NCBI GenBank assembly: GCA_017409905.1
Contig: JAFQRV010000013.1
Coordinates: 1-39,042, forward strand
DNA length: 39,042 nt
Direction of reading: 5' to 3'
From: Bacilli bacterium
Lineage (GTDB): Bacteria > Bacillota_I > Bacilli_A > ML615J-28 > CAG-313
Positions 20,944-23,263 of the stretch are shown here, piece after piece (position 1 is the first letter of the stretch; each line of letters starts with the position of its first letter). The position numbers were made by a program, and so were the translations under genes. The notes beneath the pieces are model-generated. The model did not search any database, was not told where the DNA came from, and saw only the letters and a program-made list of their open reading frames with translations.

Positions 20944-21507
20944 TTACAAATATTCGTCCATATTTACTATCGTTTCAGGAGTATCAATGGATAATTTATA
21001 TTCTTTTTTGTCACTATCAAAGACTGTAAAAGTAATTATGTCTTTTACTTCTTTCATAGTAATACCAAAAAAATTACAATTATTATCTCTTTTATATCTT
21101 GCTTCTTTTTTTGTCCATAAATCATAAAACATATCTTTCGTAAAGATTGTTATCTCTTTATCTATTCTTCTAATTAGCTGTTCAAAGTTAGTTCTATCAA
21201 TACAACGCTCAATATCAATACCTAGTTCTTCCTTTCCAATTCCAATTGATATTAAATTATGTGAATGACTTATGTTAAAGTAAATGTCTGAGTTTCTAAA
21301 TTTTGGTTTACCTTTTTCATTTAATTCAATAACTAATTCAGATGTATTAATTAAGTATTCTTTTCGAAGAATTTCTTCTAAAAAACTCCACGCTACTAGG
21401 CTAACTTTACTTTTTTCATTTTTATATTTATTTACTTGTTTTAAAAATTCTATTGGTAAATTATTATTGACCTTATACTTTCTTAAATCTAGAACATACA
21501 CTTTCAT
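20944..21507 (-). CDS. Sfp-type 4'-phosphopantetheinyl transferase
   Basis: The enzyme moves the phosphopantetheine arm from coenzyme A to a Ser of a carrier protein. The 187 residues show GKPKF (66-70), FNISHSHN (77-84), GIDIE (96-100, Mg ligands Asp98 and Glu100) and WTKKEA (131-136), the ordered signature of the superfamily. Length is shorter than Bacillus Sfp (224). No polyketide or nonribosomal peptide genes occur in the window, so it may activate the fatty acid carrier protein or a distant target. It is a single gene between the SpeD terminator and its own hairpin, with a TATAAT -10 about 15 bases before the Shine-Dalgarno. Confidence 0.85.
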   Translation of the reverse strand: MKVYVLDLRKYKVNNNLPIEFLKQVNKYKNEKSKVSLVAWSFLEEILRKEYLINTSELVIELNEKGKPKFRNSDIYFNISHSHNLISIGIGKEELGIDIERCIDRTNFEQLIRRIDKEITIFTKDMFYDLWTKKEARYKRDNNCNFFGITMKEVKDIITFTVFDSDKKEYKLSIDTPETIVNMDEYL

Positions 21508-21548: not shown

Positions 21549-21576
21549 AACCTTAAGATTTTATAATCTTAAGGTT
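21549..21576 (-). terminator. Intrinsic terminator of the ureohydrolase-SpeD operon
   Basis: Arms 21549-21560 and 21565-21576 (AACCTTAAGATT and its complement, loop TTAT) overlap the stop codon at 21575. The minus-strand 3' side reads TTTTTTATTT. Confidence 0.88.
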
Positions 21577-22384
21577 ATTTATCAATACCAATATTAGTTT
21601 GCCATAAAGTACTTGCTTTTAATTCATCTTCTGTAATAACTGATTTAACACGGTAAATATGTTTAGTACCACGAGGAACTAATACATTAGATTTTAAATT
21701 ACCTAATTCAGATAATTTACTATCTACTTCATCATAGTTAAATGGGGCACAAGAGAATAAATCAGCAAAGATTTTTTTATTTTTTATATCATAATGTAAA
21801 GCAATATGACTTTGTGCAATAATGATTATTCCAGAAATATAGTTAGGATTATTAGTTCTATCTTTATTAACAACACTTCTAATTATTGGATCCATGTTAA
21901 TATCTACAACTAAATTTTCTAAAAAGTCATACATATAATCCATTGTAATTTCTTTATTTGCATCAATTTCACACATTAAATGTGGACCAAAATCACAGTC
22001 TGTATCATATGGATTTTTATGGAAAGTTCTTTCGTCACGATTGATTATTTCAAAATTAGAAGCTTTTTCATCAAACGGTAATGTTTCCATAAAATAATCA
22101 TAAATTTGCTTTTCATCGAAATCAGTAGTGGAGAATACATCAACAAAATAACATTCTCTAAATGGGAATGTATGGATAGTTACGTGCCCTCCTTTTAATA
22201 AAACATAAGCACTGATTCCACTATCTTTTTTAACTCTACCATAATAATATGGAATAATATGTGGTGGAGCAATAGGAACTAATCCAAACTTATATCCCAC
22301 ATAATTTAAAATTTGATAAACAGTTGTTAAATCGTTTAAAGAATATTGACTTGCTCCGTAACAGTCTAAAGTAATATGTTTCAT
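21575..22384 (-). CDS. speD: Fused double SpeD-like pyruvoyl decarboxylase, one half degenerate
   Basis: Bacterial SpeD is a protein of about 120-140 residues that makes its pyruvoyl cofactor by self-cleavage before the Ser of ESHxxxH. Here 269 residues hold two such units. Unit 1 begins HITLDCYG and has GGHVTIHTFP (65-74) and VDVFSTT (81-87): Gly66 replaces the Ser and Thr86 the catalytic Cys. Unit 2 starts about 131 and has AQSHIALH (190-197, Ser192) and ADLFSCAPF (207-215, Cys212), so it keeps Ser, His and Cys, though Gln replaces Glu before the cleavage Ser. One active site per chain is expected. It lies 3 bases after a ureohydrolase gene and no spermidine synthase gene is seen. Its substrate may be S-adenosylmethionine, arginine or ornithine. 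Confidence 0.82.
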   Translation of the reverse strand: MKHITLDCYGASQYSLNDLTTVYQILNYVGYKFGLVPIAPPHIIPYYYGRVKKDSGISAYVLLKGGHVTIHTFPFRECYFVDVFSTTDFDEKQIYDYFMETLPFDEKASNFEIINRDERTFHKNPYDTDCDFGPHLMCEIDANKEITMDYMYDFLENLVVDINMDPIIRSVVNKDRTNNPNYISGIIIIAQSHIALHYDIKNKKIFADLFSCAPFNYDEVDSKLSELGNLKSNVLVPRGTKHIYRVKSVITEDELKASTLWQTNIGIDK

Positions 22385-22387
22385 ATT

Positions 22388-23263
22388 TTATCTCTTTTCT
22401 ATAATTTCTTTAAAAATTTCATATAATGTTTTTAATACTAACCATGAAGCAGTATTATTTTTATCATCTAAATTTGGTGATACTTCTACAATATCCATAG
22501 CAGTAATATTTAATTTAGATATTAAATTAATTAAGATTTTTAATAAAGTATATGAGTGAACTCCAAATGCCTCAGGCGTACCAGTTCCTGTAACAAATGA
22601 AGGATCATTTGCATCTATATCATATGATAAATAAATTTCATATTTTTCATCACTATATTTTTGAGTTATTTCATTAAGCATTTGTTCTATACCATTGTCT
22701 AATATATAACTTGCTTCATATATTTTAATTTCCGGGTGTTTTTCGAAAAATTCAATTTCTTGTCTTTCATATCCTCTAATACCTATTAAAGTAATATTTT
22801 CAAGGCTATAGCCTTTTTCATATGCGCGCATATTAGGACATGCATGAGAGTATTTAGACCCATCATAGAAATCACAAAAATCAGGATGTGCATCAATATG
22901 AATAATTACTGGAGTCTTACCTCTTTTAACCACATCGTCATAAAAATTAGCTTGTAAAGGAATAGAAACGGAATGATCTCCGCCAATATGAATTTTAAAA
23001 ACATCTTTAGAAAATAAATCTTTTGTAAGAATATTAATTTTGTCTAAGGTTCTAGTTTTTATTATACCATTATCATATAGTTTTATATCTTCAATAGACT
23101 TCCCATTCATAGTAAAAGGTGGTAAATGCTTAGACAAATTTCGAATAACTTTTGGAGCATTCCTTGCCCCTTTTCCAACCGATGCTCCTAAATCATATGC
23201 AATACCAGTTATTATTACTTTCGCATCTTCTTTTTTTGTTAATAAGCCTCTAAAAGTTTCCAT
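22388..23263 (-). CDS. speB: Ureohydrolase (agmatinase/arginase family)
   Basis: A binuclear manganese hydrolase of 291 residues. All metal motifs are intact: GGDHS (His97), HIDAHPD (His122, Asp124, His126, Asp128) and SYDIDANDP (Asp215, Asp217), with GTGTPE after them as in agmatinase. The loop HACPNMRA differs from the usual agmatinase HGTMFRRA, so guanidino substrates such as agmatine, arginine, formimidoylglutamate or guanidinobutyrate all stay possible. Its pairing with a pyruvoyl decarboxylase gene favours agmatine to putrescine plus urea. AAGGAG precedes the start. A -10 TATACT lies about 35 bases upstream, with a weak -35. Confidence 0.85.
   Translation of the reverse strand: METFRGLLTKKEDAKVIITGIAYDLGASVGKGARNAPKVIRNLSKHLPPFTMNGKSIEDIKLYDNGIIKTRTLDKINILTKDLFSKDVFKIHIGGDHSVSIPLQANFYDDVVKRGKTPVIIHIDAHPDFCDFYDGSKYSHACPNMRAYEKGYSLENITLIGIRGYERQEIEFFEKHPEIKIYEASYILDNGIEQMLNEITQKYSDEKYEIYLSYDIDANDPSFVTGTGTPEAFGVHSYTLLKILINLISKLNITAMDIVEVSPNLDDKNNTASWLVLKTLYEIFKEIIEKR

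Follow-up and report, generated by a model that had tools for sequence, protein, structure and literature searches.

A fused double SpeD-like protein with a cofactor-less first half and its ureohydrolase partner in Bacilli: a predicted arginine-to-putrescine gene pair

Introduction

The active site of S-adenosylmethionine decarboxylase (AdoMetDC) takes residues from both halves of one chain or from both subunits of a pair (PMC1282579, PMC3975893). The eukaryotic enzyme has one site common to its two halves: the N-terminal half provides the pyruvoyl Ser, and the other half provides the His needed for processing and, at the end of strand 12, a ribose-binding Glu. The prokaryotic enzyme carries the residues of both sets and is a pair of identical molecules (PMC1282579). 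In the human enzyme, Ser229 and His243 take part in processing, Ser229 being the match of Ser55 in T. maritima SpeD (PMC3975893). A 2023 study described SpeDA, SpeDC, and a series of SpeD fusions in which the degraded half, if there is one, is C-terminal and the gene lies next to speE; the same study gave Gln, Thr, Phe, and Tyr as the residues diagnostic of SpeDC (its Fig. 8) and reported from Vampirovibrio a set of speD, second speD, speE, and speB of which the second SpeD decarboxylates arginine (PMC10407285).

Here we describe a fusion of two SpeD-like units from a Bacilli metagenome-assembled genome (MAG) in which the unit without a cofactor comes first and the partner gene encodes a ureohydrolase. 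A dead-first SpeD fusion with such a partner was not reported in the open-access papers searched, most subscription papers and all preprints lying outside that scope. The best explanation of the two genes, and one that we hold to be likely, is that they form a self-contained arginine-to-putrescine cassette in which the fusion is a SpeDA/SpeDC-like tandem with one composite site.

Results

The window, by which we mean the whole stretch of DNA analyzed, comprises 39,042 nucleotides (GCA_017409905.1, contig JAFQRV010000013.1) of a 1.37-Mb MAG that is 71% complete. The locus consists of two genes and a hairpin.

21575..22384, minus strand: fused double SpeD-like gene, predicted pyruvoyl-dependent arginine decarboxylase (ORF of 269 amino acids; two PF02675 matches; 17 homologs)
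22388..23263, minus strand: ureohydrolase gene, predicted agmatinase (ORF of 291 amino acids; PF00491, E = 1.2e-60)
21549..21576, minus strand: intrinsic-terminator-like hairpin after the fusion gene (12-pair stem and T-rich tail)

The ORFs and the double Pfam match bear out what a first-pass annotation had read from the letters of the DNA, namely, these coordinates and reading frames, a spacing of 3 bases between the fusion and the ureohydrolase gene upstream of it, and two SpeD-like units in one chain. Pfam AdoMet_dc (PF02675) matches the 269-residue chain twice (E = 3.3e-22), so the two units are not a product of chance, and together with the 17 homologs these matches rule out coincidence or a frame artifact as the source of the double unit. 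Given the terminator-like hairpin downstream of the fusion, the ureohydrolase and fusion genes look like a closed two-gene unit, and both are also present in the nearest relative compared, a Bacilli MAG from sheep colon. An Rfam search of the window returned no match, and promoter-like sites were not commoner than in shuffled sequences. Downstream of the fusion, at 20944-21507, lies a phosphopantetheinyl-transferase-like gene that is absent from this place in L003, from a relative of the same genus; there, the gene directly after the fusion encodes an acyltransferase.

Fusions with the dead unit first and the live unit second were found in 17 genomes from several families of the class Bacilli, several of these genomes being incomplete MAGs; in all 17, unit 1 lacks the Ser and the Cys and unit 2 has both. 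Within the order, 16 of 43 genomes gave a SpeD match, the fusion occurring in 12, a class 1a SpeD in 5, and both in G041. Sampling of the class and phylum added fusions in G252, G276, G310, G228, and G124, all from the same class, the last being shorter and divergent. A plasmid search with the fusion gave no match, and phage searches found only single-unit SpeD. One record filed as a phage, Microcystis phage MaAM05 (MW495066.1; L055 2477-5255), has speD, a second speD homolog, speE, and speB side by side; this polyamine cluster, almost complete, may be likened to the Vampirovibrio set on gene content only.

The halves of the fusion and the residues on which their assignment turns are as follows.

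21992..22384, minus strand: unit 1, residues 1 to 131, the cofactor-less half (boundary at FGPH; Gly66 and Thr86 at the Ser63 and Cys83 positions)
22187..22189, minus strand: Gly66 codon, pyruvoyl Ser position lost in unit 1 (alignment to T. maritima SpeD; Gly in 16/17, Phe in 1/17)
22127..22129, minus strand: Thr86 codon, catalytic Cys position lost in unit 1 (Cys in 0/17 homologs)
22172..22174, minus strand: His71 codon, probable unit 1 equivalent, by spacing, of T. maritima His68 and human His243 (17/17)
22211..22213, minus strand: Ser58 codon, unit 1 equivalent of T. maritima Ser55 and human Ser229 (17/17; Ser55 to Ser229 from PMC3975893)
21578..21991, minus strand: unit 2, residues 132 to 269, the cofactor-bearing half (Ser192, His197, and Cys212 in 17/17)
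21809..21811, minus strand: Ser192 codon, predicted self-cleavage site and pyruvoyl precursor (aligned with T. maritima Ser63; 17/17)
21749..21751, minus strand: Cys212 codon, predicted proton donor (aligned with T. maritima Cys83; 17/17)

The T. maritima SpeD reference sequence agrees with residues 6 to 103 of 1tlu. Alignment to it confirmed the earlier claim that unit 1 has lost the pyruvoyl Ser and the catalytic Cys; for unit 2, Ser192 and Cys212 stood, but His193, which had been listed with them, falls at the His64 position, and the catalytic and processing His68 corresponds instead to His197 of unit 2 and to His71 of unit 1 (both in 17/17). From residue spacing rather than from a computed result, we read His68 as the probable counterpart of human His243 and Glu72 as that of Glu247. 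The catalytic set expected of a class 1b SpeD (equivalents of the pyruvoyl Ser, His68, and Cys83) is complete in unit 2 only (17/17), and the WPE-loop Pro and the ribose-binding Glu, also expected of that class, are not jointly conserved in either unit. Unit 1 has the HTF sequence in 17/17, the loop of the window protein reading HTFP, and keeps the WPE-loop Pro in 15/17; at the ribose-binding Glu72 position, it has Leu, Phe, Ile, or Lys. In unit 2, the W70/P71/E72 loop is lost, the conserved Pro whose loss marks SpeDA is not conserved, and the Glu72 position is not Glu in most of the fusion sequences. The loss of WPE after the cleavage Ser, as first described, thus applies to unit 2, whereas unit 1 retains the equivalent loop. 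The Glu-to-Gln change before the cleavage Ser is likewise real (Gln191 in the window protein), but the suggestion that it signals an altered substrate is not supported, because the position varies within the fusion family, with Glu in 6/17 fusions.

Conservation is highest where the catalytic residues are missing. The core of unit 1 (residues 43 to 84) has 19 of 42 positions invariant and a mean identity of 75%, compared with 9 of 42 and 59% for the core of unit 2 (residues 172 to 213; 16 genomes in each case); with no other part of the protein as well conserved as the unit 1 core, pseudogene decay of that unit is ruled out. The losses are complementary, unit 1 having given up the Ser and Cys and kept the His, the Ser55 equivalent, and the HTFP loop, with the converse in unit 2 for Ser, Cys, and loop. 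From these losses, shared by 17 homologs, and from the literature on the shared AdoMetDC site, we infer one composite site in which the roles of the halves are reversed relative to the eukaryotic enzyme, in support of the pseudo-heterodimer with one site predicted at the outset; degenerate unit 1 is probably not simply dead but supplies part of the active site. Unit 2 also retains its own Ser184 and His197, a point against this reading.

An AlphaFold2 model made with viral homologs (pLDDT 76.7, pTM 0.76) has two copies of the same fold order, and Foldseek puts T. maritima SpeD at the top of its matches (TM 0.79-0.80 by target length); the model supports the prediction of two SpeD folds. Its match to whole eukaryotic (class 2) AdoMetDC is weak (TM about 0.3, rmsd about 13), and the alignment informed mainly unit 1, so the model speaks for the two folds rather than for their packing or interface. 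A further AlphaFold2 prediction with two sequences scored poorly (pLDDT 55.6).

The tree comprised 60 units over 129 columns, with some long branches and unsettled bootstraps, and left out the experimentally typed SpeDA and SpeDC proteins, so that the choice between arginine and ornithine decarboxylase rests on gene partners. True SpeD (HTWPE, TCG) split from all other units with support of 100/99, and unit 1 (100/100) and unit 2 (99/88) each formed one clade opposite true SpeD, on the same side as single-unit viral homologs and the second SpeD of MaAM05. Phylogenetic placement, which had been proposed as a check, therefore sets both halves away from true AdoMetDC and with neofunctionalized SpeD homologs; a single fusion event is the simplest reading. 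A class 1b SpeD would be expected to group with true SpeD and to have a SpeE partner; the 100/99 split separates the fusion from the former, and SpeE is absent from its own genome.

The window ureohydrolase has the metal-ligand motifs GGDHS, DAHPD, and DID. Agmatinase is its best family (TIGR01230; 161.6 bits, a little under the cutoff of 174.3), well ahead of arginase (92.1) and the formimidoylglutamase hutG (83.4), and the agmatinase family matched all 11 ureohydrolase members scanned (best E 2.2e-60). A ureohydrolase adjoins the fusion in 14/17 genomes and is the sole neighbor common to most (11 of 14 sampled neighborhoods), and fusion and ureohydrolase distances correlate over 14 pairs (Mantel r 0.91). 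In both trees, G009 groups with G038 and G040, which belong to another family, a pattern that fits joint transfer of the gene pair, the G009 contig being only 8 kb. G032, where a PF01276 decarboxylase stands in for the fusion, carries a ureohydrolase of the same subfamily.

Three fusion genomes depart from this arrangement. G010 and G228 gave no PF00491 match, and the match in G124 is distant, unlinked to the fusion, and altered in its metal motifs; in this arginase-like protein (L107 3471-4367), DAHxD reads SAHPS, and it is probably not a working ureohydrolase. Agmatine deiminase (PF04371) is present in these three genomes, which are of different families, and in 0/14 fusion genomes with the ureohydrolase (Fisher p 0.0015, computed within the 17 fusion genomes). 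In G228, aguA is followed by aguB and both products pass their cutoffs; in G124, AguA passes its cutoff and a carbamate kinase gene is next; in G010, an AguA-like protein, under its cutoff, is encoded about 4 kb from the fusion. The occurrence of agmatine deiminase only where the ureohydrolase is missing is the strongest evidence for agmatine and, therefore, for arginine decarboxylation. The proposed conversion of arginine to agmatine to putrescine by the pair, a prediction from the first reading of the DNA, thus gains support from tree placement, from agmatinase as the best ureohydrolase family, and from the confinement of agmatine deiminase, among fusion genomes, to the three that lack agmatinase, and the pattern by which SpeDA is recognized, a SpeD homolog without SpeE and with SpeB or AguA in the genome, is present. 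The G010 region (L104 732-10279, G010:C12) holds, besides the fusion and the AguA-like gene, genes for two RyR-domain proteins, a TIR protein, a ParA-like ATPase, and a Thoeris ThsB-like TIR protein, and it resembles a conflict or defense island.

We consider it improbable that the fusion is instead an ornithine decarboxylase of the SpeDC type and the ureohydrolase an arginase, with arginine passing through ornithine to putrescine. Both halves do lie in the branch with SpeDA-like and, according to the literature, SpeDC relatives, and known SpeD fusions include an ornithine decarboxylase half (PMC10407285), but the ureohydrolase scores as agmatinase rather than arginase, it lacks the arginase-type NTxxxxSGNxHG stretch that is present in the G042 arginase, and agmatine deiminase takes its place in three genomes. 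Action of the pair on another guanidino compound, or regulation of the ureohydrolase by a fusion that is not itself an enzyme, is also unlikely: the family of the pair is uncharacterized and the closest single PDB relative of the ureohydrolase is a guanidinobutyrase, but the enzymes that replace the ureohydrolase, including AguA with AguB in G228, are specific for agmatine, and the invariance of Ser192, His197, and Cys212 is as expected for an active enzyme.

Other polyamine enzymes were sought family by family. The remark that no spermidine synthase gene lies nearby could be extended to the whole of the window's own assembly and to the 96%-complete, same-genus G008, neither of which has SpeE; its loss through assembly gaps is unlikely, given its absence from G008 too. 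Within the order, convincing SpeE matches (E < 1e-49) occurred only in the five genomes that also have class 1a SpeD, with weaker matches in others; G041 alone among the fusion genomes has a clear SpeE, and its class 1a SpeD adjoins it. That the fusion has remained an S-adenosylmethionine decarboxylase, as a bacterial analog of class 2 AdoMetDC, is highly improbable, for although each unit has the fold of T. maritima SpeD and the one-dead-half logic is that of class 2, fusion genomes other than G041 have no convincing SpeE, the Glu72 position is not Glu in unit 1 or in most unit 2 sequences, and the tree position is away from true SpeD. A PF01276 decarboxylase above the family cutoff was found in 0/12 fusion genomes of the order, the set covered by this search; G041 had two matches below the cutoff, and the mutual exclusion of PF01276 and the fusion is not significant alone (p 0.08). 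Other PLP decarboxylase folds are partly excluded, PF02784 giving one match or none per fusion genome and the window's only match being LysA (identity checked in the window only). SpeY (PF01916) is absent from 17/17 fusion genomes, which rules out a homospermidine route through it. PF01564-matching proteins of about 540 amino acids occur in G039, G014, G035, G036, and G013, genomes without any SpeD.

Discussion

The architecture of the fusion, its kept and lost residues, its linkage to the ureohydrolase, and the accompanying genome patterns are established at the level of sequence, and the gene patterns suggest the predicted function, an arginine decarboxylase making agmatine. We propose that the 269-residue chain would cut itself once, between Gln191 and Ser192, to give one pyruvoyl cofactor. 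Unit 2 would bring the pyruvoyl group and Cys212, and unit 1, unable to make the cofactor, would reach across the interface with Ser58, His71, and the HTFPxR loop; the composite site so formed would decarboxylate L-arginine to agmatine, which the adjoining agmatinase-type ureohydrolase would convert to putrescine and urea. We also lean, with more reserve, toward the view that a bacterial lineage has arrived anew at the layout of class 2 AdoMetDC, with the roles of the halves reversed: an arginine decarboxylase descended from AdoMetDC would have been duplicated and fused, and its halves would have lost complementary parts, leaving one split site in which the cofactor-less half holds the substrate-binding and processing residues. 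If true, this would be the first case, within the open-access literature searched, of an AdoMetDC-derived arginine decarboxylase that takes the form of a fused pseudo-heterodimer. It would be a mirror image, made by nature, of the eukaryotic enzyme, for which an origin from SpeD fusions is under debate; it would offer a clean test of the passage from a homodimer with two shared sites to a single-site fused enzyme and would give little-studied gut Bacilli a PLP-free route to putrescine.

Among known systems, SpeDA shares with the fusion the SpeD fold, the pyruvoyl Ser, the lack of a SpeE partner, clustering with speB, and loss of the WPE-loop Pro (PMC10407285, PMC9992855), but the known SpeDA proteins are small and single-unit, whereas the window protein consists of two fused units, one without the cofactor. 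The SpeD1SpeD2 fusions of Desulfotignum, Omnitrophica, and Lentisphaerota (PMC10407285) likewise join two SpeD units, one of which may be degraded. Their working AdoMetDC is the first half, encoded beside speE, and any degradation affects the second; in the Bacilli fusion, by contrast, degradation affects the first half, the partner gene encodes a ureohydrolase, and the two halves fall on the neofunctionalized side. In the Trypanosoma AdoMetDC/prozyme pair (PMC5201418), too, an active AdoMetDC is partnered by a paralog without catalytic activity, but the two are separate chains and activation is by relief of autoinhibition, in contrast to the single chain of the fusion. With eukaryotic class 2 AdoMetDC (PMC1282579), the fusion shares duplication and fusion, one cofactor, and, as predicted for the fusion, one site built from residues of both halves; class 2 enzymes have the cofactor in the N-terminal half and a degraded C-terminal half, whereas in the fusion this order is reversed in 17/17, with the cofactor in the C-terminal half and a different predicted substrate.
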